Of a stretch of DNA of 52,850 nt, positions 4,412-42,153 are shown piece after piece. Location of the stretch: positions 1 through 52,850 of the IMG/VR virus record IMGVR_UViG_3300020198_000024. One strand, given 5' to 3'. How positions within the stretch are numbered: the first letter of the stretch is position 1; the number at the start of each line of letters is the position of its first letter. Source of the DNA: a virus. The position numbers were made by a program, and so were the translations under genes. Below the pieces are notes generated by a model. The model saw only the letters and a program-made list of their open reading frames with translations, was not told the DNA's origin and ran no database searches.

Positions 4412-4422
4412 ATAACTATTAC

Positions 4423-6266: not shown

Positions 6267-6274
6267 AATTTTAC

Positions 6275-7156: not shown

Positions 7157-7161
7157 TAATT

Positions 7162-8088: not shown

Positions 8089-8109
8089 AATTTTACCTCT
8101 TTTTTTAAA

Positions 8110-8280
8110 TCATTCTTTAAAAGTTGTCATAGATTGATTAGAAGGTTCCAATTTATCTGTGGCTGTCTCGACTATCCCACCCAACTTTTTTTTCGCATCT
8201 AAAGCCCAAGACTTTATATAGTCATCAAGAGAAGAGCTAAATTCTTCTACGACACGACTTGGAAAAAGATTATTCTTCAT
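8110..8280 (-). CDS. Small acidic-basic helical protein (56 residues)
   Basis: The ATG at 8280 overlaps the TAA of the upstream nuclease-domain gene and has GGGAG just before it, so I prefer it to the TTG further upstream. The product starts MKNNLFPSRVVEEFSSSLDD and contains YIKSWALDAKKKLGGIVE, probably one amphipathic helix. No family recognised. It lies between the nuclease-domain protein and the leader-tagged genes and is probably co-translated with the former. Confidence 0.5.
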   Translation of the reverse strand: MKNNLFPSRVVEEFSSSLDDYIKSWALDAKKKLGGIVETATDKLEPSNQSMTTFKE

Positions 8281-9220
8281 ATTTATAACTCCCAACATAC
8301 CCTTCTCGAGCTTGAGGAGAATTCCAACCTATTAAACGATGGAATCCATCAAACCAATAAATATCAGCTATATTTGTATCTAGATTCAAAATCAAAGATA
8401 TAGTAACTGGCTTCCTCTTTTTACCTAATTCACGGAAAACATGTTGTTTACGTTCCATAATAGCATCCATTTTGCGATGGCCCCATTCTTCTTTTGCTTC
8501 ATCAGAAGCATCTTTTAACCAGTTTGTCTCTTCCTCCCCTTGTTCACCTATAGTAACACGCCACTTCTGAGAGTCTGGTTGATTAAGAGATAACCCAGCC
8601 TTAACTTCGACTAACAGGTCTCCGGCAATTAAATCTACAGGATAATTACCTCGTCCAACATTTAAAAACTGAACATCCTTGTGTCCTTGATCAATCAAAA
8701 ATCTATGAGCTATACTTTCACCAAGCGTTCCAGTTTTTGAATGGGAAAGTTGACGTGTACCAGTAGGTTTACCTTCCCACGCCCTATCATTTACTGGAGT
8801 TAATCGAACTCGTGGCTCACTAATTAACTTTTTCTCTTCCTCAGTCATAGTTTCATCTTGTGGACCATAATCTCGACCGGCAGCCTCTGTTAGAGTTGAT
8901 TGGGACGGAACAGTTTCTTGTAAACTAACATTTGGTTTTAATTCAGTCGTTGTTGGTTTTACTCCAGTTAAAACTGAAATTTCAGAAGAATCTTCTTCTT
9001 TTTTAAGAAAATTATCTAAATCTTTTTTTCTCTTTCTAGTATCTCCACCATAGGTCGGAGTAAAAACTCCAGAATCAGAAGAAGTTGCTACAGTTCCTGT
9101 CCCGCCCCCATCTCCACCACCGCTTTCTTTACTAAGATTAGAACGAAGATTGGAAATGACTAACCATTCAGCAAACTGTTGAACTGCAGATTTACGCAAG
9201 ATCGAGGTTTTCAATGTCAA
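8270..9220 (-). CDS. Protein with C-terminal PD-(D/E)XK nuclease-like domain (316 residues)
   Basis: The first 160 residues are disordered, Gly/Ser/Thr- and charge-rich. The C-terminal half has the nuclease core: E169 in GTLGESIAHRFL, D196 in NYPVDLIAGD and E205-V-K207 in LLVEVKAGLS, the E...D...ExK order of Holliday-junction-resolvase or McrA-like nucleases of this superfamily. The likely start is a TTG at 9220 with GGAGA five bases upstream, overlapping the end of the portal gene by 29 bases. A nuclease directly behind the portal is unusual. It could help package or degrade DNA, or enter the host with the genome; none of these is shown here. Confidence 0.6.
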   Translation of the reverse strand: MTLKTSILRKSAVQQFAEWLVISNLRSNLSKESGGGDGGGTGTVATSSDSGVFTPTYGGDTRKRKKDLDNFLKKEEDSSEISVLTGVKPTTTELKPNVSLQETVPSQSTLTEAAGRDYGPQDETMTEEEKKLISEPRVRLTPVNDRAWEGKPTGTRQLSHSKTGTLGESIAHRFLIDQGHKDVQFLNVGRGNYPVDLIAGDLLVEVKAGLSLNQPDSQKWRVTIGEQGEEETNWLKDASDEAKEEWGHRKMDAIMERKQHVFRELGKKRKPVTISLILNLDTNIADIYWFDGFHRLIGWNSPQAREGYVGSYKYEE

Positions 9221-11138: not shown

Positions 11139-11189
11139 AAATTATGCTCCAATATAAAATGGATAAAGATTTTGATAAATAAAAGTCAT

Positions 11190-11621
11190 TTAATTCTCCA
11201 TTGAATCAATTGCTAATACTTTCAAAATATTGTCCATAGCATGCTTTTTAAGGGCGAAAGATTCTGTCATTGGAGGTGCCTCTGGAGTTTTTGGTTTAGC
11301 TAAAAGCATTTTCTGAAGATTTTCTATTTCGGCTTTATAGGATGAATTCTTTTCTGTCAATCTCTCAACTTCCTCTGAATTTGATGCGATCATAGCATTT
11401 TCAAGAATTCCCATTCTAGTAGCAGTTTTTACTAGATCAATAAAAGCTGCTTCAGGAAGAATTGTTAATGCTGGATGATCGTCTTCAATTTCATCTTCAA
11501 TATTAACGTTCTTCAAACTTGGATGCCAGGTATCAAGAAGTCTCCAAGTGTGAGTTTTTTCATCATATTGAGAAGAAAATCTATTTTCTCTTTGCTGCAA
11601 AGTACTTCCCATAGTTGTCAT
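11190..11621 (-). CDS. Coiled-coil protein upstream of portal (143 residues)
   Basis: Start ATG at 11621 follows a GAGGTG ribosome binding site. Residues 80-110 (EEVERLTEKNSSYKAEIENLQ) form a clear coiled coil, and the tail is Pro/Ala-rich then helical. Small coiled-coil proteins next to the portal are often scaffolding or head-completion proteins, but I see no diagnostic motif. It follows a roughly 100-base gap after the reductase gene, so it may be the first gene of a late head transcript. Confidence 0.5.
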   Translation of the reverse strand: MTTMGSTLQQRENRFSSQYDEKTHTWRLLDTWHPSLKNVNIEDEIEDDHPALTILPEAAFIDLVKTATRMGILENAMIASNSEEVERLTEKNSSYKAEIENLQKMLLAKPKTPEAPPMTESFALKKHAMDNILKVLAIDSMEN

Positions 11622-11676
11622 TTCAATTCACCTCAATTAACTTGTATAAACAACATTTCTATTCAAAGAACACATA

Positions 11677-11684
11677 TATTTATA
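11677..11684 (-). promoter_or_regulatory. TATAAATA box in the gap before the head genes
   Basis: The gap between the reductase gene and the coiled-coil gene contains TATAAATA on the minus strand, about 56 bases before the start codon. This is the T4 late promoter consensus, and the window encodes a sigma-like factor. One AT-rich octamer in an AT-rich gap is weak evidence. Confidence 0.25.
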
Positions 11685-11720
11685 ATAAAAATTTCTTATT
11701 CTTTATATTGTATTTCAAAT

Positions 11721-14231: not shown

Positions 14232-14237
14232 ATGAAT

Positions 14238-14699
14238 TTAGTCTCCCTTTGAATACGACATTAATAAATGATATCTACGCTCTTCTTCAGCCCCAGACCA
14301 TTTCTCAACTTTTTCAAGAGAAAGAAGCTTTCCTGTATCTGATCTAATAGCATGAGTTTTATTGGTTTTATTATCATTTTTCTTGGCAATTTCTTTTAAA
14401 GCAGAACATATATTTCGATCATATGCTTTGCAATGTCCAATTACCACAAAAAGAACATCTCCTAACTCTAACGATGCTTGATCTAATTGCCTTTTTGAAA
14501 TGGCTTCTTTAAATTCATTAATTTCTTCGTCTAAAATTTGGTGACGCTCATTTTCAAAAAGTTCTTGAGGATCTCTTAAAACAAGCCCAACAACATTTCC
14601 GTCTTTCGATTTTGAACCTTCAAAGCCCCATCTTTCATGAAAATTCCAAACAGATTCTGCAATAATTTCAATTGCAGACATAAATTCGTCTTTTGTCAT
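14238..14699 (-). CDS. MazG-like nucleoside triphosphate pyrophosphohydrolase (153 residues)
   Basis: The helical metal-binding motif EEINEFKEAI ... LELGDVLFVVIGH matches the EExxE and ExxD pairs of the all-alpha NTP pyrophosphatase superfamily. The start codon overlaps the terminase stop (TAATG). Phage MazG enzymes clean or rebalance nucleotide pools and have been proposed to lower alarmone levels. Its position next to the reductase suggests nucleotide metabolism. Confidence 0.8.
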   Translation of the reverse strand: MTKDEFMSAIEIIAESVWNFHERWGFEGSKSKDGNVVGLVLRDPQELFENERHQILDEEINEFKEAISKRQLDQASLELGDVLFVVIGHCKAYDRNICSALKEIAKKNDNKTNKTHAIRSDTGKLLSLEKVEKWSGAEEERRYHLLMSYSKGD

Positions 14700-16357
14700 T
14701 AATTTCCTCGATTCATTATAAGTTTATTAAGCTGTGCTTCCATTTTATTTGATTTACAAATAATACAAATTCCAGATTCTACATCATATCCAATATGTTG
14801 ATGACAAGTTGGACAGGAAATTTTATTTTCTTTTGGCTTATCAAATGCTTGGGAACCATAGACTGAAGAAATTGGTTTAGTCTCTGAAGATTCTATAAAA
14901 AAATTCATATCACCAAGATCAGTTATTGATTTAGTATCCAGCTCTTTTAAAGCAAGACAAGCAAGAGCACAAGAAAAAAATGAATCTCCATGTCCAGCAG
15001 GAGTTTCTGCTGCTTGTAAATCTCTATTAACACAAGTTATTTGACTTTTTTGGCGACTATCTTCGATTATGAAAAACATACCAGAATGGACATAATGATC
15101 AAATGCTGAAGCCATCTGAAATTTACTTTTTAAGGTAAATGTTATTGGACGCCAAACTCTATTAAGTCCACGATCTTCTAATTCAGCTTTTGTATTATCA
15201 TAATATCCTCTAGTCACATGAAATTTTTCTGCAATTTTATTTAAATGTTCAGCTTGATTATCATATAACCATTGATCCATAAATCGACTGTAAAGTTGAT
15301 AAAATTTTTCTTCTTTCTTACCAAAGACTACAATATGAGAAGGATGCTTTTTCTTTCCAATATCAAATCCAGCTACAACATAGTCATATTTTTTGATTTC
15401 TTCCTGAAGATCTTCAGAGTCTGGGTCGTAATTTCTTAAGTTAACATCTTCACACGACGTAATTTCAGCTTCTGAAAAGTAAGAATCTGTTGAAAGCCTT
15501 GGAGCTAGTAAAAATTCAGTCTCAAATGAAGAAGGAGAACTTTTTTTAATCTTAAGAAGATCTTCTTCTGAATAAAGCTCTGGGAATAAAACTCTTTTTC
15601 CAGGAAGTGGGTCAAGAGCCGGAAGAATAACTGAATTAAATCTCTCGTCTTCTTTTAATTTTGCTAACAAATCATCGGGAAGCATTGGAGTACCAAGAAC
15701 AATAATTGGACATCCCTTGTTTGGAATGAACATAGATTCTGTTTTAAAATGCTCTTCTATTTTATAGACTTGATCTGGGGTTAATGGATTTTGAGGATCT
15801 TTTAAAAGATCGTCTGCTACCATTGCTCCAGTATGCATTCCTCGTTTGAAGGCGTATAATCCACCATGTTCAATTTGAATTTGACGACGACCAATTTGAT
15901 ACCTAAATGAATAATCTGCATCGTTAGATCTATCTGTCATTATTGGATTTAAAACTGGGTTACGTCGAATAGCATTTTTAGCTTCTTTGATATGATATTG
16001 ACTCATCTTAGCGTTATATGAAAGATAAAGAAGAGAGGCGTCGCTAGGTTGCTTTAAAAGATGCCATACAGAAAATCCATGTCCAAGAATTGTACTTTTT
16101 AAATGCATACGAGGGAGAACTGCCATAAAATATTTATCTTCGGCTAAAGCCCTTTCAAGTTCATTACAGATGTAGCCAACATGCCAAGCATCAAAGTATG
16201 ACTTCTTTTCGTATCCTAGAGACCAAATATCTCGGATAAATTCCCAAAAAGTACCAACTTTAACAAATTTTACGTCTAATAGCTTATCTACAAGAGAAGC
16301 TAAGCCGTCAGAATAAGATACTAATTTTCCGCCTGGTTCCCTGTTCGTTCGTCCCAT
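14699..16357 (-). CDS. Terminase large subunit (552 residues)
   Basis: This is the ATP-driven DNA-packaging motor and headful nuclease. The N-terminal ATPase has an atypical Walker A-like LPRMHLKST (81-89), as in several phage terminases, followed by LLYLSYNAKMSQYHIKEA. The C-terminal RNase H-fold nuclease has the first Asp in VVAGFDIGKKKHPS and a further acidic block at AAETPAGHGDSFFS. An unusual extension carries a zinc ribbon, CPTCHQH ... CIICKS. It overlaps the small-subunit gene upstream by 37 bases, consistent with coupled translation. Confidence 0.88.
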   Translation of the reverse strand: MGRTNREPGGKLVSYSDGLASLVDKLLDVKFVKVGTFWEFIRDIWSLGYEKKSYFDAWHVGYICNELERALAEDKYFMAVLPRMHLKSTILGHGFSVWHLLKQPSDASLLYLSYNAKMSQYHIKEAKNAIRRNPVLNPIMTDRSNDADYSFRYQIGRRQIQIEHGGLYAFKRGMHTGAMVADDLLKDPQNPLTPDQVYKIEEHFKTESMFIPNKGCPIIVLGTPMLPDDLLAKLKEDERFNSVILPALDPLPGKRVLFPELYSEEDLLKIKKSSPSSFETEFLLAPRLSTDSYFSEAEITSCEDVNLRNYDPDSEDLQEEIKKYDYVVAGFDIGKKKHPSHIVVFGKKEEKFYQLYSRFMDQWLYDNQAEHLNKIAEKFHVTRGYYDNTKAELEDRGLNRVWRPITFTLKSKFQMASAFDHYVHSGMFFIIEDSRQKSQITCVNRDLQAAETPAGHGDSFFSCALACLALKELDTKSITDLGDMNFFIESSETKPISSVYGSQAFDKPKENKISCPTCHQHIGYDVESGICIICKSNKMEAQLNKLIMNRGN

Positions 16358-16869
16358 TTTGCTATAACCAACTTAAGACGAGACCCAATTTGACTTCTAA
16401 TGTCTTCGTCTTTAACAACTTCTACAATCGCATCAAAAATATCTTGAACAAATTCAACGTGAAGAATTCCTGCTTGAACCGTCCTTTGACCTTTAATAGC
16501 TACATCTACGACTTTAGCCGCTTCACCAGCAGATTTCCAATCTAATGTTGGATAAGCTGCTTTTGCAGTATCAAGCAATAAATCATAATCTTCTAGTTGA
16601 CGTTTGGTAGAGGCTTTTCTTCTAGCTACCTCAGAATCAATTATTGACTTATTTGTTTGAACGGCAATTTCAGCTCTAATATCTGTCCAATTATTATTGG
16701 AAATCCAAGATCTAACTGTTGTATAGGTTAAACCTAAACCTTCATGCTTCTTATTCAGCTCATCGACAATGTCTTGAATCTTCGCATCTTTTTCAAGAAA
16801 AATTCTTAGAGCCTCATCTTTTATTTCAACTGGAAAAGAAGTTTGAACAGGATTCTTTTCAGCTACCAT
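16321..16869 (-). CDS. Terminase small subunit (182 residues)
   Basis: This protein would recognise the packaging site and regulate the large subunit. The N-terminus has a helix-turn-helix (DAKIQDIVDELNKKHEG ... TVRSWISNNNW) followed by long helices, as in small terminases. The ATG start abuts the stop of the upstream gene. Its position immediately before and overlapping the large subunit supports the call strongly even though the family is poorly conserved. Confidence 0.75.
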   Translation of the reverse strand: MVAEKNPVQTSFPVEIKDEALRIFLEKDAKIQDIVDELNKKHEGLGLTYTTVRSWISNNNWTDIRAEIAVQTNKSIIDSEVARRKASTKRQLEDYDLLLDTAKAAYPTLDWKSAGEAAKVVDVAIKGQRTVQAGILHVEFVQDIFDAIVEVVKDEDIRSQIGSRLKLVIAKWDERTGNQAEN

Positions 16870-17372
16870 TAAACATATCCCCCTCCAACCGGGTCAGGAA
16901 TATTACCACCTTGCGGCATTAGCTTTGTAAAGTCTATATGATCTGTAGCTCGACCGTCCTTACCCATCGTAAAACATTCCGGAACGTCTTTTTTATAAGA
17001 ACCAGATCCAGATGGACCCATAGTAATTTTAGACTTACGAATAGCAATCACTCCTCTAGAACAAACCCCGTCGTATGCATCATCTGGAAAATTCCACGGC
17101 TTTGAAAGTTCATTTTTTGACGCAGTCATAAACTTCTTTAAACCAGAAATCTTCTTATTCCAAACACAATCAAAGAAATTACAATAAACAAGAGTTGGGT
17201 TTTCTTCTTTTAATGATTCTTCAGAAACTCCCTTTGGCCATTCGTCAATAGCCTCTTGGTTGACTCTATCTACCGCTTTAGATTGTTCATCCTTTTCATT
17301 CAACTCAATTCCAACTGAATAGATCTTGTTGTGACCAATTCTAACTTTACTCCATGGTTTTCGTTCAGCCAT
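16869..17372 (-). CDS. Hypothetical Cys-containing protein (167 residues)
   Basis: Four cysteines in LVYCNFFDCVW, GVCSRGV and PECFTMG could bind a metal, giving a small zinc-binding domain. The C-terminus is Gly/Pro rich. Its stop overlaps the start of the terminase small subunit, so it belongs to the packaging operon. I do not recognise the family. Confidence 0.55.
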   Translation of the reverse strand: MAERKPWSKVRIGHNKIYSVGIELNEKDEQSKAVDRVNQEAIDEWPKGVSEESLKEENPTLVYCNFFDCVWNKKISGLKKFMTASKNELSKPWNFPDDAYDGVCSRGVIAIRKSKITMGPSGSGSYKKDVPECFTMGKDGRATDHIDFTKLMPQGGNIPDPVGGGYV

Positions 17373-17386
17373 AACATAACCTCTCT

Positions 17387-17569
17387 TTACGCTTCTGGAA
17401 TAACCAATCCAGACTCTGTTTTAGCCTCTTCAGATATCTTTTCCATTTCTTTTATAAACCATAAAAAAAATGCAATCACGTCTTCGTGTTTGTAGCAAAA
17501 TTCTTGAGTATTATATCTCTTTTTTTCACACGGTGGAAAACGACATTTATCTTTTATAGCTAAAGTCAT
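17387..17569 (-). CDS. Small zinc-finger-like protein (60 residues)
   Basis: The spacing in CRFPPCEKKRYNTQEFCYKH gives three Cys and one His in a typical zinc-binding arrangement, followed by a helical C-terminal half. It overlaps the resolvase stop by 4 bases (ATGA-type). Probably a small nucleic-acid-binding or partner protein; no family assigned. Confidence 0.6.
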   Translation of the reverse strand: MTLAIKDKCRFPPCEKKRYNTQEFCYKHEDVIAFFLWFIKEMEKISEEAKTESGLVIPEA

Positions 17570-18033
17570 ACTTTAACCCTTTCATCAAATCCAGATAAAC
17601 CAATTGTTGCAGCATCACAAAAGTTTTGATCTTTAAAGTCTTTCTTCTTGCCAAAAGTCTTAATCGCAAAAGCTTGAACTTGCTCTTTTTTAGCCCAAGG
17701 ATCTTTTATAGTTTTCTTTTTCCATGAAGTTACAGTTATTAATTCAAATGGAATCTTAAATTCAGATAAAGTCAATTGAACTCCAGCTACTACTTTTGCT
17801 ATAGCTACTGTTGTTGCTGGATTTTGAATATAAAGCTCTTTTTCTACCATAGCCTTGTTAATTATTTTAATAGAACGTTTCATTTTCTTTTTAAAAGCTG
17901 GTACAATTTCAAGAAATCTTTCATCAGAAAGTGCTGCTTTACTCTCACATTTAAATAACTTCTTTAATTTTTTATCATCATCTAAAATTGCTACATGAAT
18001 AGCTTTAGAAGAACAATCAATTCCTACTTTCAT
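17566..18033 (-). CDS. RuvC-like Holliday junction resolvase (155 residues)
   Basis: The RNase H-like fold is suggested by the opening KVGIDCSSKAIHVAIL, with D6 as first catalytic acid, a central helix with VAGVQL, the conserved TVTSWKKKTI block and the terminal Asp in DAATIGLSGF. Length matches the RuvC family. It would cut branched DNA before packaging, fitting its place upstream of terminase. Confidence 0.7.
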   Translation of the reverse strand: MKVGIDCSSKAIHVAILDDDKKLKKLFKCESKAALSDERFLEIVPAFKKKMKRSIKIINKAMVEKELYIQNPATTVAIAKVVAGVQLTLSEFKIPFELITVTSWKKKTIKDPWAKKEQVQAFAIKTFGKKKDFKDQNFCDAATIGLSGFDERVKV

Positions 18034-18092
18034 TTTTTGTTTTACTCATAATATTTGATGTTAACATAATGTATCTATTTATTATATGATGA

Positions 18093-18596
18093 TTAGATGT
18101 CATTACTTATAACTCCAGTTGTTCTTAATGAAACTACTCGGGATACAGCAAAATAGGCTGTATCATAAGCATCCTTTATTCCATTTAATTTTGAAATAGT
18201 AGCTTCAAGTTCAATTTTTTGGAGTTTTATCTTTTTGAGGTCCTCAGAAGATTCCATAGCTTCACCATGTAAAACTTCCCGAAGAACTCTTTTTGCCCCA
18301 GAAGAAGTATATTTTCTGTCTAATTCAGATACTTTTCGAGACAGAGCCTCATCAAAAATTGCGTCCAATGCACCTTTTCTCGAAGTTAAATCTGCTAATT
18401 GTAGCTTAACATAAACAAGATAGCCACCAAAAACTGATATATATTCTTCTAACTGCTTATTGGTTGAAGAAGGTAGATTTCCAAGAGAAATATTTTTCTT
18501 TTGGGAAATAGTTGAAACATCAATTTCTGGAATACCAAGATCTTTTAAATATTGATTAGATTTAACAATAACTCCATCATATATTTTTTGCAACAT
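18093..18596 (-). CDS. Hypothetical coiled-coil protein (167 residues)
   Basis: Predicted mostly helical, with a coiled-coil-like segment LKKIKLQKIELEATISKLNG and a Lys/Arg-rich central helix. No catalytic motif seen. It directly follows the nuclease at 18597 with no gap, and is probably part of the recombination module with it and RecA. Confidence 0.5.
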   Translation of the reverse strand: MLQKIYDGVIVKSNQYLKDLGIPEIDVSTISQKKNISLGNLPSSTNKQLEEYISVFGGYLVYVKLQLADLTSRKGALDAIFDEALSRKVSELDRKYTSSGAKRVLREVLHGEAMESSEDLKKIKLQKIELEATISKLNGIKDAYDTAYFAVSRVVSLRTTGVISNDI

Positions 18597-19283
18597 TTAA
18601 GACTCATCTTTCACTAATAAACATGGGCAATATCTATCATGAATTCCTTCGACTTCATGAAGTCGAGGCATAATACCCATATTTATAATCTTCTCACACC
18701 TCTTCAATATATTTTTCCAAGCACTTTTGCTCTGCTTAAGATCAAATATCTTTATATCTTGATTATCTTTACATTCATAAAGAACTCCACCTTGTTTAAT
18801 ATCAAGCATATTGAGATAAATTTGAAGTTGAGTCGCATGATCTGATTTTGGACCAGACAAACCAGAAAATCCATCTTTATTGATTGTCTTTAATTCCACT
18901 ACATAAATTAAACCATTCATATTAAGTAAAAAGTCTGCACGACCAGATATTGGTGGAAATTGATGCTTAACTACCACTTCTTCGTCAACCAGATAACCAA
19001 GCTGTGAAAAATATTTTTTATATCTACTTTGAGTAGCATTTCCGTGATCGAATATACGATTTAACTGCGGACTTATTTCACTAGATGGCAATCCAACATG
19101 ATATGAAAGAAAAAGAGCTCGATCACAAGAATTTCCTAAAGCAGACGGATAAAAAGTACCTTTTCTTGATTCCCCTGGAGCAACATAAAGATGCTTATCA
19201 ATACTTTTAACTAATTCTTCTCCAAATAGCTCTTCTTTAAGAGTATTCTTTTTGTTTGTAGATATTTCTTTTATTCCTGGCAT
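18597..19283 (-). CDS. RecB/Cas4-like PD-(D/E)XK nuclease (228 residues)
   Basis: Motifs in order: C53 in GNSCDRALFL, H80 in FDHGNATQ, D117 in GRADFLL, E130-L-K132 in YVVELKTI, Q152 in ATQLQIYLNML, and a C-terminal YCPCLL cysteine pair. This is the Cas4/RecB order, and the cysteines could hold an iron-sulfur cluster as in Cas4 and AddB. It lies next to recA and probably resects DNA ends for recombination-dependent replication. No CRISPR array or cas1/cas2 is present. Confidence 0.75.
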   Translation of the reverse strand: MPGIKEISTNKKNTLKEELFGEELVKSIDKHLYVAPGESRKGTFYPSALGNSCDRALFLSYHVGLPSSEISPQLNRIFDHGNATQSRYKKYFSQLGYLVDEEVVVKHQFPPISGRADFLLNMNGLIYVVELKTINKDGFSGLSGPKSDHATQLQIYLNMLDIKQGGVLYECKDNQDIKIFDLKQSKSAWKNILKRCEKIINMGIMPRLHEVEGIHDRYCPCLLVKDES

Positions 19284-19600
19284 TTTAATTCCTCGTCAAT
19301 ATCAAAAACCTCTCTCAATAGAATTTTTCTAATCTCATCTATTTTATTTGTTTTGATATGAATAATTTTTTTAATTCCAAACTCTTTAAGCTTTTCGTCT
19401 CTAATAGAATCTGCTTTCTTAAAATGACCATAAAGACCGTCAGCTTCAACAACATAAGGGACATCTTGAATTAAGAAGTCCACCCAGTAATTTCCGATAG
19501 TCACCTGTTCTTGAAAACGTAATCCAAGTTCCCTTAGAATATCTGATATTTTTTTCTCTTGTTTAGTCCCAGATTTAGGTGGCTTTTGAATTAATGACAT
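19271..19600 (-). CDS. DUF559/Vsr-like endonuclease domain protein (109 residues)
   Basis: The core YWVDFLIQDVPYVVEADG contains D41, E52 and D54 as in the DUF559 branch of the PD-(D/E)XK superfamily, followed by the conserved charged helix DSIRDEKLKEFGIKKI. It overlaps the next nuclease gene by 13 bases. Possible roles are nicking during repair or recombination, or attack on host DNA. Confidence 0.65.
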   Translation of the reverse strand: MSLIQKPPKSGTKQEKKISDILRELGLRFQEQVTIGNYWVDFLIQDVPYVVEADGLYGHFKKADSIRDEKLKEFGIKKIIHIKTNKIDEIRKILLREVFDIDEELKCQE

Positions 19601-19611
19601 AAGTTTATCAA

Positions 19612-20574
19612 TTAAGAAGCTACTTCTATATCATCCCCAAAAACTTCTTCTTTTAACTTGTCTAATTCATCTTGGGAAGACTTGAAATAAGTTCTTAGGC
19701 CGTTAATTCCCTGGGTTGTTTGTCCCTTAAACTTGTACCATGCCCCACTCTTTTCAATAAGCCCAAGTTCAATAGCTTTTCTAATAATTAATTCCATAAT
19801 ATCGAATCCACCGACGACCTTAAATGGAACGATTATATCGTCCCAAGCTTCTCCCCCAACTTTTGTCTTTTTCATCGATATTTTCATATCAAATCCAATC
19901 TTCTGCTTGTCTTCTTCAATCCAACCATCTCGACGAACCTGAAGAATCATATGAGCAAAATATGTTTGTCCAATTCCTCCTGGCATGTTATCCAATGCAA
20001 CTGGACCCATCGAAGACCTATTCTGATTAATGATAATTAGAGCAGATCCATGCTTTAAATGTCCCATTAATTTTGGCAACGCTGAATTAATAAATCTTGC
20101 TTGCCAAGCCATTGGGTTGTATCCGAATTTTTCATCCATGACTGAAGCAGGAACAAGACCTGCTATAGAATCTAACACAACGACAGGAACTCCCTTATCT
20201 AGAAGATAAACGGCAGTATCCATAGCTGTTTCACCTGTATAGCTTTGATGTACAGCAACAAGGTCTGTATCTACTCCACACTTTTTAACCCAATCTGGGT
20301 CCCAGGACATTTCAGCGTCTATCCAACCGGCTATTCCACCCCTTTGCTGGGCATTTTTAATTGCTTGCAAAGCAAGATATGATTTGCCAGAATTTGTTGG
20401 GCCAGTTAACAATGTAATTCTCTTGGTCGGTATTCCACCACCAATAAGTTTATCAAGAGGTGCTATACCAAAGGGAATCCTTGAATATTTTAGTTCTTCG
20501 CTTGAGCCAAGTTCAAGATCTTTCATTCCCTCGACAATATCTTGAATTGCTTCTTGTTGTGTTTTAGGAACCAT
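19612..20574 (-). CDS. recA: RecA/UvsX-type recombinase (320 residues)
   Basis: Strand-exchange ATPase. Walker A is GPTNSGKS (58-65), Walker B is VVVLDSIAGL, and the L1/L2 region carries INQNRSSMGPVALDNMPGG. The length is near that of short phage RecA proteins, with a C-terminal winged region. It overlaps the small upstream gene by 11 bases and is followed by two nucleases, giving a compact recombination module. Confidence 0.9.
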   Translation of the reverse strand: MVPKTQQEAIQDIVEGMKDLELGSSEELKYSRIPFGIAPLDKLIGGGIPTKRITLLTGPTNSGKSYLALQAIKNAQQRGGIAGWIDAEMSWDPDWVKKCGVDTDLVAVHQSYTGETAMDTAVYLLDKGVPVVVLDSIAGLVPASVMDEKFGYNPMAWQARFINSALPKLMGHLKHGSALIIINQNRSSMGPVALDNMPGGIGQTYFAHMILQVRRDGWIEEDKQKIGFDMKISMKKTKVGGEAWDDIIVPFKVVGGFDIMELIIRKAIELGLIEKSGAWYKFKGQTTQGINGLRTYFKSSQDELDKLKEEVFGDDIEVAS

Positions 20575-36248: not shown

Positions 36249-36543
36249 TGGTGGAGCGGGGGGAGAGTCGAACTCCCCGTCTCAAAATTAGCTTCAATTA
36301 ATTCTTCACAAGTTTTTCTGATTTAAAGATATCAGAATCTAATTAAACACTAGGTCTTAATCTTGTTTTATTTGTCTCCCAATCAGCTAAAACAATAAAT
36401 ACTTTAAGGGAGTCCCTTTTTTAAGGAAGAGAGAAGACTGGTTCGTTGCCAGTTACTTGTTTACCAATTAGATTAACGAGATATCTTGGCATGCTCGACT
36501 TGCATTAATTGCTGCATGATCTTGATCGAAACCACTCCGCCCC
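36249..36543 (-). ncRNA. ssrA: tmRNA (transfer-messenger RNA)
   Basis: The 5' end GGGGCGG pairs with 3' CCGCTCC, followed by A and an encoded CCA. The 5' half carries the diagnostic TGGTTTCGA and GTCGAG segments, and the 3' half the T-arm GGGGAGTTCGACTCTCCCC. The mRNA-like part resumes at GGC (36450), giving the tag GNEPVFSLP then TAA at 36421. tmRNA rescues stalled ribosomes and tags the nascent protein. The tag lacks the usual hydrophobic Ala-Leu-Ala-Ala end recognised by ClpXP. The reading frame was chosen by similarity to the (A/G)N-[D/N]E start of known tags. Confidence 0.9.
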
Positions 36544-36759: not shown

Positions 36760-36836
36760 TGGCTCCCGAGGCAGGACTCGAACCTGCGACCCGCTGATTA
36801 ACAGTCAGCTGCTGCTACCTACTGAGCTACTCGGGA
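36760..36836 (-). tRNA. tRNA-Asn(GTT)
   Basis: Acceptor TCCCGAG/CTCGGGA, D-arm GCTCAGTAGGTAGCA, anticodon loop CTGTTAA, T-arm GCAGGTTCGAGTCCTGC, discriminator G and encoded CCA. All standard. Confidence 0.95.
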
Positions 36837-36934
36837 ATATTTCCTCTAAATCTTTCTAGATTTCCTATCTTCTCGCATTTTTAATACTTTCCAGCTTAAC
36901 CAAATTACTCATTAACTTCTTCTATAAAATTTAT

Positions 36935-37008
36935 TGGCTCTCCAGGTTGGATTCGAACCAACGTTCTAGGTTTCAAAGACCTATGTCCTACCTTTGGACG
37001 ACCGGAGA
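36935..37008 (-). tRNA. tRNA-Gln(TTG)
   Basis: Acceptor TCTCCGG/CTGGAGA, anticodon arm TAGGT-CTTTGAA-ACCTA, T-loop TTCGAAT, discriminator G and encoded CCA. Standard cloverleaf. Confidence 0.93.
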
Positions 37009-37072
37009 ATTGGACTAGCTAAAATTTCTAAATTATAATAAGCTACCTCTTTCTATACCATTTTATATTATG

Positions 37073-37165
37073 TTACGGCGACCCCAGAATTTTTTCCCAA
37101 AAACTGTCGTTCAACACCGACTGGGGTGACACAGGGTATTTTTTTCGGATAGATTGATGTTTCAT
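37073..37165 (-). CDS. Possible 30-residue peptide in the tRNA island
   Basis: An ATG at 37165 is preceded by AAGGTGG five bases upstream. The peptide starts MKHQSIRKKYPVSPQSV and ends in FWEKILGSP. The 3' half also forms a possible RNA hairpin (CACCCCAG with CTGGGGTCG), so the segment could instead be an untranslated structured RNA. It fills the only sizeable gap between tRNA-Glu and tRNA-Gln. Confidence 0.35.
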   Translation of the reverse strand: MKHQSIRKKYPVSPQSVLNDSFWEKILGSP

Positions 37166-37246
37166 TACATCCACCTTAACAGCTACGTAATGGTGCCCTA
37201 TCCTAGTTGTCTTTCTTAGTTTGTAGCTAAACCGCCGTAATAAATC

Positions 37247-37321
37247 TGGTAGGGTCAGGGGGATTCGAACCCCACATTCGGAGCTTGAAAGACTCCCGTC
37301 CTGCCGTTAGACGATGACCCC
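37247..37321 (-). tRNA. tRNA-Glu(TTC)
   Basis: Acceptor GGGGTCA/TGACCCT (one G-U pair), D-arm TCGTCTAACGGCAGGA, anticodon loop CTTTCAA, T-loop TTCGAAT, discriminator A and encoded CCA. Confidence 0.94.
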
Positions 37322-37361
37322 AAAACCGCATTCAAATAACTTTTAATTCAATATCGTTTAT

Positions 37362-37370
37362 ATTATATCA
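37362..37370 (-). promoter_or_regulatory. Extended -10 promoter motif upstream of tRNA-Glu
   Basis: TGATATAAT, a perfect extended -10 element (TGnTATAAT), lies about 40 bases before tRNA-Glu. The same nonamer occurs before tRNA-Lys and tRNA-Thr. Confidence 0.45.
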
Positions 37371-37429
37371 TAAAAAATAAAGGTTGTACATCCCCCTACC
37401 TCAATGGTTATACTCTAATAAATAAGTTG

Positions 37430-37930
37430 TCACTTTGGTGATAACACCATAAAAATAGTGTTCATTTCACGCTTTGGTTTCTCATCAATTTTAGAAATAG
37501 AAGAAACTTGCTCTACTGTTTTCTTAAGAATACTTAAACCAAGATCTAAATGAGTTTTTTCTCGACCTTTAAACTTAACAACAAGTCTGACAATATTTCC
37601 GTCTTTAAGAAACTTTTCAATTAAACGAATCTTATGTTGAAGGTCATAGGCAGCAATTGTTGGAGAAAGCTGAACTTCTTTTTTCTTTGGGATATTCAAC
37701 TTCTTTTTTATTTCTTTTTCTTTCTTAGTAGCTTCATACTTAATCTTGCCGTAATCTAAAAACTTGCATATTGCAATTCCATCTTTGTCGACGGAAACTT
37801 CAACTAGATCTAATCCTTGACTATGTGCTGACTGCAAAGCATCTGAAATTTTTAGCTTAGATAATCCAATTGGAGTTACGATTTTAACCTCGGAACCTTT
37901 AACCTGATTGTTTATCTTGAATTCTTTGAT
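37430..37930 (-). CDS. infC: Translation initiation factor IF-3, starting on AUC (166 residues)
   Basis: Binds the 30S subunit, blocks early 50S joining and proofreads the initiator tRNA and start codon. The N-domain (INNQVKGSEVKIVTPIG, LDLVEVSVDKDGIAICKFLD), linker YGKIKYEATKKEKE and C-domain (LSPTIAAYDLQHKIRLIEKF, VVKFKGREKTHLDLG) are full length. No ATG, GTG or TTG exists in frame until codon 32, inside the N-domain, and a TAA lies five codons before the ATC at 37930. That ATC is five bases after AAAGGAGGT. Bacterial infC also uses rare AUU/AUC/AUA starts for autoregulation. The TTG at codon 32 would remove about a fifth of the protein. Confidence 0.92.
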   Translation of the reverse strand: MKEFKINNQVKGSEVKIVTPIGLSKLKISDALQSAHSQGLDLVEVSVDKDGIAICKFLDYGKIKYEATKKEKEIKKKLNIPKKKEVQLSPTIAAYDLQHKIRLIEKFLKDGNIVRLVVKFKGREKTHLDLGLSILKKTVEQVSSISKIDEKPKREMNTIFMVLSPK

Positions 37931-37931
37931 A

Positions 37932-38120
37932 TTATACCTCCTTTAAAAATTGTGTTCTACAAACTGGACATTTAGCTGGAAAATACTTATCGGGAACAAA
38001 TGTAGTTGGCTTGAGACATTTTTGACAAATAAGAACATCTAACCCAAATGACTTTGAAACAAAAATTTGACACCAACGTTTACGATTGTTAAGTACAAAT
38101 TTCTCTTTAATTGAAGACAC
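37932..38120 (-). CDS. Small zinc-ribbon protein upstream of IF-3 (about 62 residues)
   Basis: Two CxxC pairs (LICQKCLKPTTFV and AKCPVCRTQF) form a zinc ribbon after a basic segment NNRKRWCQIF. The annotated GTG start sits inside the AAAGGTG Shine-Dalgarno-like sequence. An in-frame ATT three codons later has better spacing from it and is a possible second non-standard start. The stop overlaps the IF-3 ribosome binding site, so the two are coupled. Confidence 0.65.
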   Translation of the reverse strand: MSSIKEKFVLNNRKRWCQIFVSKSFGLDVLICQKCLKPTTFVPDKYFPAKCPVCRTQFLKEV

Positions 38121-38140
38121 CTTTAATCTCTTATTAACTA

Positions 38141-38180
38141 AAACAGCCCTATCTTGATTATTACCAAGATGGGGCTGTTT
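38141..38180. terminator. Strong hairpin, probable Rho-independent terminator
   Basis: AAACAGCCC (38141-38149) pairs with GGGCTGTTT (38172-38180). A T-G wobble and ATCTTG/CAAGAT extend the stem to about 16 base pairs with an 8-base loop. On the minus strand the stem runs into TTTTAGTT. It lies over the stop codon of the small upstream gene and separates it from the zinc-ribbon/IF-3 pair. Confidence 0.65.
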
Positions 38181-38322
38181 GTTTGATCTTAAGAATAGCT
38201 TTCATTATTTCATCATTCGTCGGGGCTCTCTTAAATATATATTTAAACTTTTTAAGACATGAAACACAAATTTGATCAGTTTCACAAATAAGTTGAGAAC
38301 ATATAAAGCATGTCTTAATCAT
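38161..38322 (-). CDS. Small zinc-ribbon protein (53 residues)
   Basis: I used the ATG at 38322 (MIKTCFICSQLICETD) because longer versions run into tRNA-Leu. Two CxxC pairs (CFIC and CVSC) are followed by a basic helix KKFKYIFKRAPTNDEIMKAI. Its stop codon is inside the terminator hairpin. No clear ribosome binding site is seen, which lowers confidence. Confidence 0.55.
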   Translation of the reverse strand: MIKTCFICSQLICETDQICVSCLKKFKYIFKRAPTNDEIMKAILKIKQTAPSW

Positions 38323-38351
38323 TAATATATTATATTGCCTTTCAAACATAA

Positions 38352-38436
38352 TGGTAGAGATGGAGAGGATCGAACTCTCACGCCTTTCGGCAGTGGTTTT
38401 TAAGACCACCCTGTATTCCTATTCCAGCACACCTCC
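38352..38436 (-). tRNA. tRNA-Leu(TAA)
   Basis: Long-variable-arm tRNA with acceptor GGAGGTG/CATCTCT, anticodon arm GTGGT-CTTAAAA-ACCAC, variable stem TGCCG-AAAG-GCG, T-loop TTCGATC, discriminator A and encoded CCA. Confidence 0.93.
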
Positions 38437-38498
38437 ACTGGAATCTACAAAAAGATTCGAACTTCTAATAGCTGCTTAGTGAATAAGATAAGACTTAA

Positions 38499-38543
38499 CT
38501 AGTCTTTCTTTCCACATTTACAATTACTGCATTTGCATCCCAT
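38499..38543 (-). CDS. Putative metallothionein-like micropeptide (14 residues)
   Basis: An ATG at 38543, preceded by GAGG at seven bases spacing, encodes MGCKCSNCKCGKKD then TAG. Four Cys in CxC-x2-CxC spacing and four Lys resemble a metallothionein metal cluster. It lies between tRNA-Ile and tRNA-Leu. So short a frame could be chance, but the ribosome binding site and composition argue for it. Confidence 0.4.
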   Translation of the reverse strand: MGCKCSNCKCGKKD

Positions 38544-38561
38544 ATTAAAACCTCGATTTTT

Positions 38562-38638
38562 TGGTAGGCCCCGAAAGAGTTGAACTTTCGTCTTGATTTT
38601 ATAAGAATCCTGCTCTCACACCGTTGAGCTAGAGGCCC
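38562..38638 (-). tRNA. tRNA-Ile(TAT)
   Basis: Acceptor GGGCCTC/GGGGCCT, D-arm GCTCAACGGTGTGAGAGC, anticodon loop CTTATAA reading AUA, T-loop TTCAACT, discriminator A and encoded CCA. The outermost anticodon stem pair is mismatched. Confidence 0.88.
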
Positions 38639-38722
38639 TTGAACCAATCATTAACTTACAATTATATAAACATCATCACTATTTTCATTATATTCCAGTT
38701 TACAATATAACATCAAAGAAAA

Positions 38723-38968
38723 TTACTGGCTAGATCCGTCACCTTTATCTTGTCCGTTCCCACCTCCGTTCTTACGTTCAGCAAACCAGTATCCTACCAT
38801 CATTGCAACTAAAGGGATGTAAACTTCAGTTCGTGGGGCTGTATCTGTAACGAAAAACACGCCGTATATGTAAGCTGCTGACAGAGAGAAAAATCCAACT
38901 AATGTCAATAAGCTTCGTAACGTCGTCGGGCTAAATAACTCCATTAAAGTGGCTAAGATCTTATGCAT
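38723..38968 (-). CDS. Two-helix membrane protein, holin-like (81 residues)
   Basis: Two hydrophobic stretches, LTLVGFFSLSAAYIYGVFFV (about 20-40) and YIPLVAMMVGYWFAE (about 50-65), are followed by a charged Gly/Asn/Lys/Asp tail. This is the size and layout of a class II holin. No lysin gene is adjacent, so the lysis role rests on topology only. A GGAGG ribosome binding site precedes the ATG. Confidence 0.55.
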   Translation of the reverse strand: MHKILATLMELFSPTTLRSLLTLVGFFSLSAAYIYGVFFVTDTAPRTEVYIPLVAMMVGYWFAERKNGGGNGQDKGDGSSQ

Positions 38969-39023
38969 AGATTTGACTACCTCCTTTCTAAAAATGCTAA
39001 ATATAACTTAACTTTACTAATAT

Positions 39024-39539
39024 TTATTTAGCTTTTCTTACTTGATCAAAAATTTTATCGATTAAGTGACGATGAACTTGCTCCATTTCAATTGAAGAAA
39101 TACCATTAAGAATTGCTATAGTTTCAGCCGAGTAATTAGATTTAAACGGCTCATAAGCCCGGTTTAGATCAGAAACATTATTAAGGCGATCAGCAAGCTT
39201 AATAAGAAGAGCTTCAGGAGACATAAAAGACATCTTCTTAATGTAATATTCTACTCTACCATCGTCTACTTCAATCTTTGGCATATTCGTTACTTCCTTA
39301 ACAAAGGTTAAAACTGTGTTGCCAAAAATGTTTTTAATTTCATCTTCAGTAGTATTCGTATCCTCAAGGACATCATGAAGAAATGCTGCTGAAATCGTGT
39401 AATAATCATCAGTCAATGACGATACAAGAAGACCAACAGCTAACGGGTGAACAATATAGGGTCTACCACCAATTCTCTTTTGGCCACGATGCTTTTCTAA
39501 AACGAACTGAATTGCTTGTACGTAATCTTTTTCTTTCAT
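39024..39539 (-). CDS. Small alarmone (p)ppGpp hydrolase, SpoT/MESH1-type HD protein (171 residues)
   Basis: The motifs fit single-domain SpoT-like hydrolases: RPYIVHPLAVG (H31), AAFLHDVLEDT (H55, D56, E59, D60), EDEIKNIFG and IKLADRLNNVSDL (D117, R118, N120). Synthetase and regulatory domains are absent. It would remove the 3'-pyrophosphate of ppGpp and so relieve the host stringent response. It is the only enzyme of this type among the tRNA genes, suggesting a role in keeping translation running during infection. Other nucleotide substrates are possible. Confidence 0.8.
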   Translation of the reverse strand: MKEKDYVQAIQFVLEKHRGQKRIGGRPYIVHPLAVGLLVSSLTDDYYTISAAFLHDVLEDTNTTEDEIKNIFGNTVLTFVKEVTNMPKIEVDDGRVEYYIKKMSFMSPEALLIKLADRLNNVSDLNRAYEPFKSNYSAETIAILNGISSIEMEQVHRHLIDKIFDQVRKAK

Positions 39540-39557
39540 TATCTCCCAATCATTTTA

Positions 39558-39633
39558 TGGACCCCCTGACGGGATTTGAACCCGCATATCCAATTACGAT
39601 TACTTGCTTAGAAGACAAGATCGATACAGGGGG
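39558..39633 (-). tRNA. Unusual tRNA-Arg(TCT)-like gene lacking a normal D-arm
   Basis: Acceptor CCCCCTG/CAGGGGG, T-arm GCGGG-TTCAAAT-CCCGT, discriminator T and encoded CCA are intact and total length is a normal 76. A perfect anticodon arm CTTGT-CTTCTAA-GCAAG (anticodon UCU) starts at position 15 rather than 27, leaving no room for a D-arm. The stem can extend through CGAT/ATCG. A D-loop-like TAATTGGATA follows the anticodon arm instead of preceding it. Confidence 0.6.
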
Positions 39634-39653
39634 TTGATACATGCCACATATTG

Positions 39654-39727
39654 TACCCCCGGGAGGATTCAGACCTCCAACCTTATGGTTCAAATCCATT
39701 CGCTCTATTCTATTGAGCTACGAGGGT
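39654..39727 (-). tRNA. Divergent tRNA-Gln(TTG)-like gene without encoded CCA
   Basis: Acceptor ACCCTCG/CGGGGGT, D-arm GCTC/GAGC, anticodon loop ATTTGAA and T-stem GGAGG/CCTCC are present. The T-loop is TCTGAAT instead of TTCGAAT and the D-loop has GA instead of GG, changes that could compensate each other. After the discriminator A the sequence is CAA, not CCA. Confidence 0.65.
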
Positions 39728-39759
39728 ATTAAGCTCTTAAAACCATAAATTTAAGACTA

Positions 39760-39833
39760 TGGAGCACGCGAGGAGATTTGAACTCCTGAACTCTGCTTGG
39801 AAAACAGATATGTTGCCACTACATCACGCGTGC
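39760..39833 (-). tRNA. tRNA-Gly(TCC)
   Basis: Acceptor GCACGCG/CGCGTGC, anticodon arm TCTGT-TTTCCAA-GCAGA, T-loop TTCAAAT, discriminator T and encoded CCA. Confidence 0.93.
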
Positions 39834-39853
39834 ACATTCAATTATATTATAAA

Positions 39854-40240
39854 CTATTCGTTTGTTAGAACGACCTCATCATCTTTCTTCTTATTCTTGA
39901 GAGAAGCCTCAGAATTAAGTAATTCGACATGTTTTATAAATTTATCTGGAGTTAAGGATTTAACTCCGTTTAGCTTAATTTCTTTATTGTCAACCACTAT
40001 ATCGTCTTTAATAGCAAAATTTAAGAAGTTTTGTTTATCAGCCGGAACATGTCCGATATCTGGGAAAATAGTTCTACCCCATCCCCTAGAATAATTTTTA
40101 CCTTTATCAGACCAGAGAATTAAAGCTTCAGCCTCTACACGTAAAGACTGCTTAATTGCTTCAATTAGTGGTTGATTTAAATCATATTTAGTTTCCCCGT
40201 CCCAAAGAACTAGAGTTTCTATATCTATAAATAATCTCAA
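39854..40240 (-). CDS. HAD-like protein with a weakened catalytic motif (128 residues)
   Basis: The opening RLFIDIETLVLWDGE resembles HAD motif I but has Glu where the second Asp (DxD) is expected. ALILWSDKG looks like motif II and IKDDIVVDNKEI like motif IV. The fold is therefore plausible but phosphatase activity uncertain. The C-terminus is charged. It lies between tRNA-Gly and the Pro/Gln-repeat membrane protein. Confidence 0.5.
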   Translation of the reverse strand: MRLFIDIETLVLWDGETKYDLNQPLIEAIKQSLRVEAEALILWSDKGKNYSRGWGRTIFPDIGHVPADKQNFLNFAIKDDIVVDNKEIKLNGVKSLTPDKFIKHVELLNSEASLKNKKKDDEVVLTNE

Positions 40241-40295
40241 AATAATCTCTCCTTGATTTATTTGTGGTTAATCGAGATCCGATCTCTTTAAAAGA

Positions 40296-40631
40296 TTAAT
40301 TTTTCTTTTCTGTTAAATTAAAAGTAATTCTGACAATCTGTATAGATAGTAAAATAAACCACCATAACATAATTGATCTTGCCATATTAATTTGAGGAAT
40401 AAAAGATAGCTTGTTAGCTATAAAGTAAAAACAAAGACCAAGTGGAGTACCGCACAATAAAATACTCCAAGTAATTTCAGAAATTTTTCGACAGAATTTA
40501 TATTGTTTTTGTGGTTCTTGCGGTTTTTGCAATTTTTGTGGTTCTTGCGGTTTTTGTGGTCTTTTCGGTCTTTGTGATTTTTGTGGTCTTTTCGGTCTTT
40601 GTGATTTTTGTGGTGGTATATTAGTAGTCAT
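40296..40631 (-). CDS. Membrane protein with Pro/Gln/Lys repeat N-terminus (111 residues)
   Basis: Residues 6-42 repeat units such as PQKSQRPKR and PQEPQK, a basic Pro-rich cytoplasmic segment. Two hydrophobic helices follow (WSILLCGTPLGLCFYFIA and SIMLWWFILLSIQIVRITF). AAGGA lies seven bases before the ATG. Its 5' leader would include the structured RNA region upstream. Function unknown. Confidence 0.55.
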   Translation of the reverse strand: MTTNIPPQKSQRPKRPQKSQRPKRPQKPQEPQKLQKPQEPQKQYKFCRKISEITWSILLCGTPLGLCFYFIANKLSFIPQINMARSIMLWWFILLSIQIVRITFNLTEKKN

Positions 40632-40655
40632 TTTAAATCCTTTTCTTTATAAGTG

Positions 40656-40835
40656 TATCGAGGCAGGATTCCCCACTCTGCTCCATTTGGGGAGTTTCAC
40701 CCCCTCAAATCTCTTACCAGACTACCCGTATCGATAGTCCCTCGATATCTATAAATGAAGGGTGAACCCCACGCCCTTCTTGTTACCATTTAACCGGACC
40801 CAACTATTAAAATAATTGGGTGAATTATACCGGTT
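40656..40835 (-). ncRNA. Structured noncoding RNA region with tRNA-like folds
   Basis: The 285-base stretch between tRNA-Lys and the membrane-protein gene has no convincing protein gene but many helices. AACCGG (40830-40835) pairs with CCGGTT (40792-40797), enclosing ACCCAATTAT/ATAGTTGGGT with loop TTTA. GAAGGG/CCCTTC forms a second hairpin at 40757-40779. TATCGAGG (40740-40747) pairs perfectly with CCTCGATA (40656-40663), closing a 92-base cloverleaf-sized element with an internal hairpin at 40685-40710. It is not a standard tRNA: there is no normal T-loop and no CCA. A TTCCCA-17-TATAAT promoter-like pair lies at its 5' end. Confidence 0.4.
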
Positions 40836-40916
40836 TATCTCATGTCTGGGAACTCGCGATGCTCGCCATCCGCAATGATTGTCAATTCAATCCAGGTAAC
40901 CTTCCAATAATTTTAT

Positions 40917-40991
40917 TGGTACACCCGACGGGAGTCGAACCCGCACCTTGCTGATTAAAAGTCAGCTGCTCTGCCTTCGAGCTACGGGTGC
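40917..40991 (-). tRNA. tRNA-Lys(TTT)
   Basis: Acceptor GCACCCG/CGGGTGT, D-arm GCTCGAAGGCAGAGC, anticodon arm CTGA-CTTTTAA-TCAG, T-loop TTCGACT, discriminator A and encoded CCA. Confidence 0.95.
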
Positions 40992-40999
40992 ATTAATGC

Positions 41000-41008
41000 A
41001 TTATATCA
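41000..41008 (-). promoter_or_regulatory. Extended -10 promoter motif upstream of tRNA-Lys
   Basis: TGATATAAT ends about 9 bases before the 5' end of tRNA-Lys, the spacing expected of a -10 element serving that gene directly. Confidence 0.5.
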
Positions 41009-41017
41009 AACTTTCTA

Positions 41018-41506
41018 TTAATTAACATCCACTTTCTTTTCTAAAGATTCTCCTCTTCTCTTTGCTAACTTATGATCTGGACCAGTCCAATATATCGTAA
41101 CACCTGTTTTTTCTATGTGCCAAGAATGATCCCAACGATGAGAAGTTTTCTTTAGACATTGTATTCTCTGAGAACCAAAAATAAGAACACAACCACAGTA
41201 TTTAGGTTTTTGTTCTATATATAATGGACAACTTTTTTGATGTGCCTTCCTGACTTTTTTCAATCCAAGATTATTGCATTTGCAATTTGGATCATGCGGA
41301 ACTTGATCATACTCTTTTTTGCTCCAAGGACGTTGAGTACAGAGGCAAAATGGATGCTCACATTTTCTGTCTTCCATAACGTCTTTAAAAACATGATTAT
41401 GCTTACACTTGTAACAATAAGGAATAAATTGATCTTGACCAAGTTTAAAATCAGACTCTCTCATTGCATTTATGAGAATTCGATTTGGCCAAACTTTATT
41501 CGTCAT
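41018..41506 (-). CDS. Cys/His-rich hypothetical protein (162 residues)
   Basis: I chose the ATG at 41506 (MTNKVWPNR), which overlaps the upstream stop and follows GAGGCG, over a GTG at 41557. Multiple clusters (CYKCKHNH, CEHPFCLC, PNCKCNN, CGCVLIF) could bind two or three zinc ions. The C-terminal WDHSWHIEKTGVTIYW block looks like a small folded domain. Family not recognised; nucleic-acid binding is likely. Confidence 0.55.
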   Translation of the reverse strand: MTNKVWPNRILINAMRESDFKLGQDQFIPYCYKCKHNHVFKDVMEDRKCEHPFCLCTQRPWSKKEYDQVPHDPNCKCNNLGLKKVRKAHQKSCPLYIEQKPKYCGCVLIFGSQRIQCLKKTSHRWDHSWHIEKTGVTIYWTGPDHKLAKRRGESLEKKVDVN

Positions 41507-41729
41507 TCGCCTCGTTTTCTTCTTCTTGTTTATGTTTACGTCTTGGTTTATCTTCACCTATTTGTTTACTTATATCTTTGATTTCTTTTTTCAAGAATTC
41601 TGTCAAAGACAGGGCTTCATTTTCTGGAAGTTTTCTTTTAAAGTCTTTCAATATCCATAAATAAATATCGTCAGTAACTGAATCACGGACTGACTGTAGA
41701 AGTAGCTTCATGGTTTCTTGAGACACCAC
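41496..41729 (-). CDS. Small charged helical protein (about 77 residues)
   Basis: Begins at a GTG at 41729 or an ATG at 41711 (MKLLLQSVRDSVTDD). The helix-rich body ends in a strongly charged Lys/Glu tail (RRKHKQEEENEANDE). It overlaps both neighbours. No family recognised. Confidence 0.45.
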   Translation of the reverse strand: MVSQETMKLLLQSVRDSVTDDIYLWILKDFKRKLPENEALSLTEFLKKEIKDISKQIGEDKPRRKHKQEEENEANDE

Positions 41730-42027
41730 CTTTTATTGCCTCCTCTATGCTTAAAATAACTGATAGTAAATTCTCATATATTTGCTTTTCAGTCATAGTC
41801 GTGTTCGATTCTAATTTCATATTAATATAATTTTTAACTTCATCTAACTTTTCAACATTAACGTTGGATAAATCTTTTTTCACATTTGAGATAATAAAAT
41901 TAAGACCGTGAGGACAAATAATTTTAAATTCGCCAGTCGGAATCAACTTCCAACCGACCCCACTAAATGGATCAACAAAGAGGCAAACACAGCCATCATT
42001 AAGAGTCGCAGTCAAAAAAGATTTCAT
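41683..42027 (-). CDS. Hypothetical protein (114 residues)
   Basis: The first half predicts a beta-rich domain (TLNDGCVCLFVDPFSGVGWKL, GEFKIICPHGLNFIIS) and the second half helices. Start ATG at 42027 comes shortly after tRNA-Thr and has GAAAGGA upstream. No family recognised. Confidence 0.5.
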   Translation of the reverse strand: MKSFLTATLNDGCVCLFVDPFSGVGWKLIPTGEFKIICPHGLNFIISNVKKDLSNVNVEKLDEVKNYINMKLESNTTMTEKQIYENLLSVILSIEEAIKGGVSRNHEATSTVSP

Positions 42028-42078
42028 AAATTCCTTTCATATTAAAGTTGTCTATCTATCATTTCATGATATGTATAT

Positions 42079-42153
42079 TGGAGCCACCGACTGGATTTGA
42101 ACCAGTGACCTGCTCATTACAAATGAGCTACTCTACCACTGAGTTACGGCGGC
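42079..42153 (-). tRNA. tRNA-Thr(TGT)
   Basis: Acceptor GCCGCCG/CGGTGGC, D-arm ACTCAGTGGTAGAGT, anticodon arm CTCAT-TTTGTAA-ATGAG, T-loop TTCAAAT, discriminator T and encoded CCA. Confidence 0.95.

Follow-up and report, generated by a model that had tools for sequence, protein, structure and literature searches.

The window analysed here, i.e. the whole 52,850-nucleotide stretch of IMG/VR record IMGVR_UViG_3300020198_000024, is a phage contig, with genes for a portal-like protein, a head protease, a tape measure, a tail tube, DnaB and a primase and, furthermore, for DNA polymerase A, NrdA, thymidylate synthase and a sigma factor. Among these phage genes, and outside a bacterial thrS-infC-rpmI-rplT cluster, lies a gene for translation initiation factor IF-3 (GC 0.32 vs 0.35 in the region). 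The features of the locus are as follows.

37430..37930, minus strand: IF-3 (infC-like) coding sequence from ATC to TGA, 166 codons and residues (Pfam, PHROG, NCBIfam, PDB, AlphaFold, Foldseek).
37928..37930, minus strand: proposed start codon ATC, at Shine-Dalgarno (SD) distance and aligned to ATA starts of Clostridia.
37936..37944, minus strand: SD sequence AAAGGAGGT, 9 nt, with a 5-nt spacer to the ATC.
37943..37945, minus strand: in-frame TAA that marks the upstream limit of the IF-3 frame and overlaps the SD (from the sequence).
37835..37837, minus strand: first canonical in-frame codon, TTG, codon 32 from the ATC, lacking an SD and lying inside IF3_N.
37932..38120, minus strand: upstream small ORF of 62 aa, zinc-ribbon-like (CxxC...CPxC; from the sequence).
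38141..38180, minus strand: strong hairpin (16 pairs) that precedes the small ORF and IF-3 and resembles a terminator on the plus strand only.
36249..36543, minus strand: tmRNA (Rfam RF00023, 98.2 bits), forming a translation-related island with IF-3.
36760..42153, minus strand: tRNA array around IF-3 (Asn, Gln, Glu, Leu, Ile-TAT, Gln, Gly, Lys, Thr).
39561-39633: tenth, weaker tRNA within this array.

Other observations concern the surroundings. The tmRNA, which was missed by ARAGORN, has a tag frame that reads by eye GGC AAC GAA CCA GTC TTC TCT CTT CCT TAA (GNEPVFSLP) and lacks the customary -LAA ending for degradation. The tRNA-Ile with anticodon TAT (38562-38638, minus strand) would read AUA directly. 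At 39024-39539 (minus strand) a stand-alone HD hydrolase domain of the SpoT/RelA type is found (TIGR00691, 1.5e-33, profile positions 2-165 of 687 only), the product of which is a possible phage (p)ppGpp hydrolase. The first 450 nucleotides of the window have a GC content of about 0.6, vs 0.36 for the contig, and may be a chimeric or host-derived end, while diverged repeats (76-84% DNA identity) at 3881-7167, with tandem ORFs of approximately 300 aa on the minus strand, are probably duplicated genes.

The product of the gene is a complete two-domain IF-3. Pfam recognizes in it both IF3_N (PF05198, 2.8e-15) and IF3_C (PF00707, 2.2e-23), the phage initiation factor family phrog_9787 of PHROG matches at 1.6e-35, and the NCBIfam equivalog TIGR00168 (infC) scores 133.5 bits, against a curated cut-off of 60 bits, over profile positions 3-168 of 170. 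Solved IF-3 chains, matched by sequence in the PDB, align from residue 2 after the ATC through the C terminus. The AlphaFold model (31 sequences; mean pLDDT 89, and 86 for residues 1-10) joins both IF-3 domains by a linker helix (residues 60-77); Foldseek matched the model to IF-3 on the 30S subunit (5lmn_X, TM 0.79), and a match was also obtained, in a viral structure library, with the IF-3 of Myoviridae sp. ctNQV2, a record outside the phage IF-3 records that we found. Residues 2-31, which are encoded 5' of the first canonical codon, are identical to bacterial IF-3 at 7-11 of 27-30 positions, i.e. about one-third, and are, therefore, very probably translated.

Several residues implicated in start-codon fidelity can be followed into this protein. 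The alignment places E. coli Y75, A42, G71 and P176 on Y65, A31, G61 and P165 of the window IF-3, all of them conserved. Mutants of Tyr75 lose fidelity (PMC5037330), and the substitutions A34T, G63D and P167L in Streptomyces IF-3, the numbering of which was placed on the window IF-3 by our own offset mapping, raise expression from a non-canonical start (PMC5472188). The codon-proximal hairpin of the CTD, which lies near the start codon and the anticodon in 30S structures (Arg159 in PMC5037330), has M156-N157 in place of E. coli G167-R168, the glycine being kept by 98 of the 106 bacteria and by 63 of the 77 phages compared. E. coli R131 is replaced by a lysine, a change shared by roughly half of the compared bacterial sequences, and the N domain has no PP. 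With the hairpin changed to M-N and the PP lost, codon discrimination by the window IF-3 may be altered.

The beginning of the gene is unusual for a phage. After the closing TAA, the minus strand reads, in the IF-3 frame, AGG AGG TAT AAT ATC AAA GAA TTC AAG ATA AAC, and, in the stretch from this stop to the conserved domain, the ATC is the sole cognate or near-cognate codon suitably spaced from the SD. The SD is joint-longest among the ORFs surveyed in the window. Since AAAGGAGGT occurs twice in the window and 0.78 times on average in shuffled sequences, its significance lies in where it stands and not in its occurrence as such; an SD match of at least 7 nt at usable spacing precedes only 12 of the 8304 ATH (i.e. 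ATT, ATC or ATA) triplets on both strands of the window. No significant signal of RNA structure was detected around the start (z -1.2). The locus has, thus, the pattern of an autoregulated infC, namely no ATG, GTG or TTG start and an ATH codon at SD distance, and the ATC is the only plausible start, from which we infer initiation at AUC itself.

An infC gene with an ATH start is classical in bacteria. How regularly it occurs was gauged on 116 bacterial infC loci (from Clostridia, Bacilli, Omnitrophota, Patescibacteria and others, with a few duplicates), in which the best SD-supported start, as chosen by a crude SD-based picker weighted towards ATG, GTG and TTG, was ATT, ATC or ATA in 89, canonical in 15, CTG in 1 and absent in 11. 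Some of these ATH starts share the aligned position of that in the window (ATA-KDFQIN in the Clostridia loci L116 and L118 vs ATC-KEFKIN), L116 being a clear single case (aaggaggataaaactATAaaagattttcagattaac vs aaaggaggtataatATCaaagaattcaagataaac in the window). IF-3 represses non-canonical starts and limits its own synthesis through the ATT start of E. coli infC, and the infC start of Streptomyces is ATC (PMC5472188); the change of AUU to AUG abolishes autocontrol in E. coli, according to Butler 1987 as cited in PMC5472188. In S. aureus, ribosome profiling has placed the infC start at AUA, and non-canonical starts have extended SDs and yield roughly 10-30% of the output of AUG (PMC13009471). 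The preliminary description had read here a full-length IF-3 frame with a TAA just upstream and no ATG, GTG or TTG before codon 32, which the sequence and the profile matches confirm; had named the ATC as the only correctly spaced codon, being right in coordinates, codon and SD (AAAGGAGGT, 5 nt); and had equated this start with the AUU/AUC/AUA start of cellular infC, which the aligned bacterial loci, PMC5472188 and PMC13009471 bear out.

Phage IF-3 genes were surveyed by profile and single-protein scans of IMG/VR and by tblastn of INPHARED, with removal of bacterial-type loci. The survey yielded 119 other loci with 95 distinct sequences, which fall into 88 clusters at an identity of 95% and into 56 at 70%; their proteins are only about 30-40% identical to that of the window. 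In every one of the 119, a canonical codon is available after the upstream stop and before the conserved domain, although such a codon need not be the one used. Four of these genes (L019, L036, L037 and L101) may have hidden ATH starts: in each, an ATT or ATC two codons ahead of the canonical one is well spaced from the SD and nearer to it. ATH-started infC was also met in the phage-labelled loci L016, L026 and L027 and in the Pseudomonas-type L015, all set aside as bacterial-type: L016 and L026 are neighbours of thrS (and L016 of L35/L20 too), while L015 and L027 were recognized by sequence type and by their joint grouping in the tree. A close relative of the window phage with IF-3 was not found in the collections searched: the 12 NrdA-related records, which are fragments or distant, had no IF-3 (G003 shares with the window only NrdA and a few genes), DnaB as bait revealed no relative, and a scan of viral contigs with a Bacillota-type profile returned no IF-3. 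The preliminary description had called IF-3 rare in phages, which is only partly right, as it is published for huge phages (PMC7162821, PMC7824862) and forms at least 56 clusters here. It had also proposed a search for phage homologues and a comparison of their starts; homologues proved abundant, a second case with only an ATH start did not emerge, and neither did close relatives. Of its further inference, that the phage kept the feedback circuit and may tune or retarget host initiation, the phage-encoded factor and its infC-type start are borne out, whereas feedback and any tuning or retargeting of the host are predictions.

The likeliest consequence of such a start is IF-3-mediated (auto)repression of the gene, and we favour, with moderate confidence, the view that the phage carries an infC that encodes an intact-looking IF-3, starts at AUC behind a strong SD and limits its own supply. 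30S-bound IF-3 would reject initiation complexes on codons other than AUG, GUG and UUG; synthesis of the phage IF-3 would, then, fall when active IF-3 from both host and phage is plentiful relative to 30S subunits, and increase when it is in short supply. The strong SD, possibly along with coupling to the small ORF, would keep the basal output usable, and the phage could top up IF-3 during infection without overshoot. Discrimination by the phage IF-3 against its own start is plausible, not assured; repression by the host IF-3 is independent of it. That dosage of the factor can matter to a phage is indicated by the finding that excess IF-3 inhibits the growth of M13, besides re-initiation, in E. 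coli (PMC2268962). A more elaborate form of the same idea, which we hold only tentatively, is that the AUC-started gene is at once sensor and actuator of the free IF-3 per 30S subunit: host IF-3 would repress it first, a fall in effective IF-3 (due to the load of phage mRNAs or to changes in the host) would switch it on, and fidelity (or a start-codon preference shifted by the changed CTD hairpin) would be kept at a level that suits the phage mRNAs.

A serious alternative, which we nonetheless judge unlikely, accepts the AUC start but not a working homeostat. The level of IF-3 would be set mainly by translational coupling, with ribosomes that finish the 62-aa ORF re-initiating at AUC and the weak codon only keeping IF-3 low. 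The geometry suits coupling, since the TAA of the small ORF (37934-37932), which is read in a different frame from IF-3, ends 1 nt before the ATC and the SD lies within its last codons, and the two are probably coupled. Re-initiation at non-AUG codons does occur in a test system that supplies mutant initiator tRNAs to match (PMC2268962). However, the translation of the small ORF is itself putative, for it starts with a GTG without SD and had no match in Pfam, PHROG or NCBIfam, and the strength of the SD before the ATC suffices for de novo initiation. Coupling and control by IF-3 may coexist, as excess IF-3 reduces SD-less re-initiation (PMC2268962).

It is improbable that the start is a fossil of capture, i.e. 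an ATH codon inherited from a bacterium, not yet changed and without selected function, even if infC is mostly ATH-started in the nearest bacterial lineages and the best tree sets the window IF-3 beside Clostridia. The latter placement is not firm: support (bootstrap/SH-aLRT) is 90/80 for its grouping with L160 and 76/0 for the Bacillota group; the protein falls near Patescibacteria in the LG tree and in Bacillota in the mixture-model trees, and a topology that joins it to jumbo phages with GTG starts (Atu_ph07/Phosso type) passes the AU test (p-AU 0.92), Bacillota being our best guess of the donor lineage. The end branch is as long as 1.37 changes per site, and no bacterial IF-3 examined is more than 41% identical, so that there was time enough for a single-base change to ATG, and other phage lineages do have ATG (or GTG/TTG). 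The long branch suggests that the gene has long been diverging while keeping a codon one substitution away from ATG, an argument for, though no proof of, selection acting on the start codon.

Less probable still is an error of sequencing or assembly that turned ATG into ATC. The start rests on one metagenomic contig, in which a C for a G would suffice; the contigs L003 and L004, 99.9% identical, cover 6125-20321 and do not reach IF-3, and the exact pattern across the start had no match in the viral contigs searched for the same phage elsewhere. However, a consensus error would be unlikely to hit just the third position of the start codon, and the infC homologues lead one to expect precisely an ATH start. 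Equally slight is the chance that translation begins elsewhere, given that TTG at codon 32, albeit a legal start codon, lacks an SD and would cost the protein half of its conserved N domain, that the in-frame ATA at codon 6, 3' of the ATC, is too distant from the SD, and that the upstream ORF, although it runs into the SD in another frame, offers by eye no obvious slippery codon pair at GTA-TAA for a frameshift into IF-3.

Returning to the proposed self-limiting phage infC, the retention of such a start, when the other phage copies examined have canonical codons, suggests that the dosage of IF-3 matters to this phage, and a single codon provides a simple handle for testing it. On the practical side, genes with ATH starts will be truncated or missed by gene callers. 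Both phage IF-3 and ATH-started infC were known already; their combination was found only here, neither a report in the open-access literature searched nor a second example in our survey having come to light.

With cellular infC (AUU in E. coli, AUC in Streptomyces, AUA in S. aureus) the window gene shares both domains, an aligned ATH start, a strong SD and the lack of a usable canonical start upstream; unlike it, the gene has tRNAs, a tmRNA and phage genes as neighbours in place of thrS, rpmI and rplT, follows directly on a small zinc-ribbon-like ORF, and encodes a protein that diverges from every bacterial IF-3 found (identity not above 41%) and has MN instead of GR in the CTD hairpin. With the IF-3 genes of huge and jumbo phages (121Q, Atu_ph07, Phosso, LR756500-type, PHROG 9787) it has in common that it is phage-encoded within a wider set of translation genes, whereas those genes, which are as distant in sequence as stated above and in many cases belong to much larger genomes, have ATG, GTG or TTG available in all 119 loci. 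The GTC start of Streptomyces sigR, which is repressed by IF-3, likewise exemplifies a non-canonical start as a handle for IF-3-mediated repression (PMC5472188), but in a cell and with a sigma factor, instead of IF-3 itself, as the regulated product.
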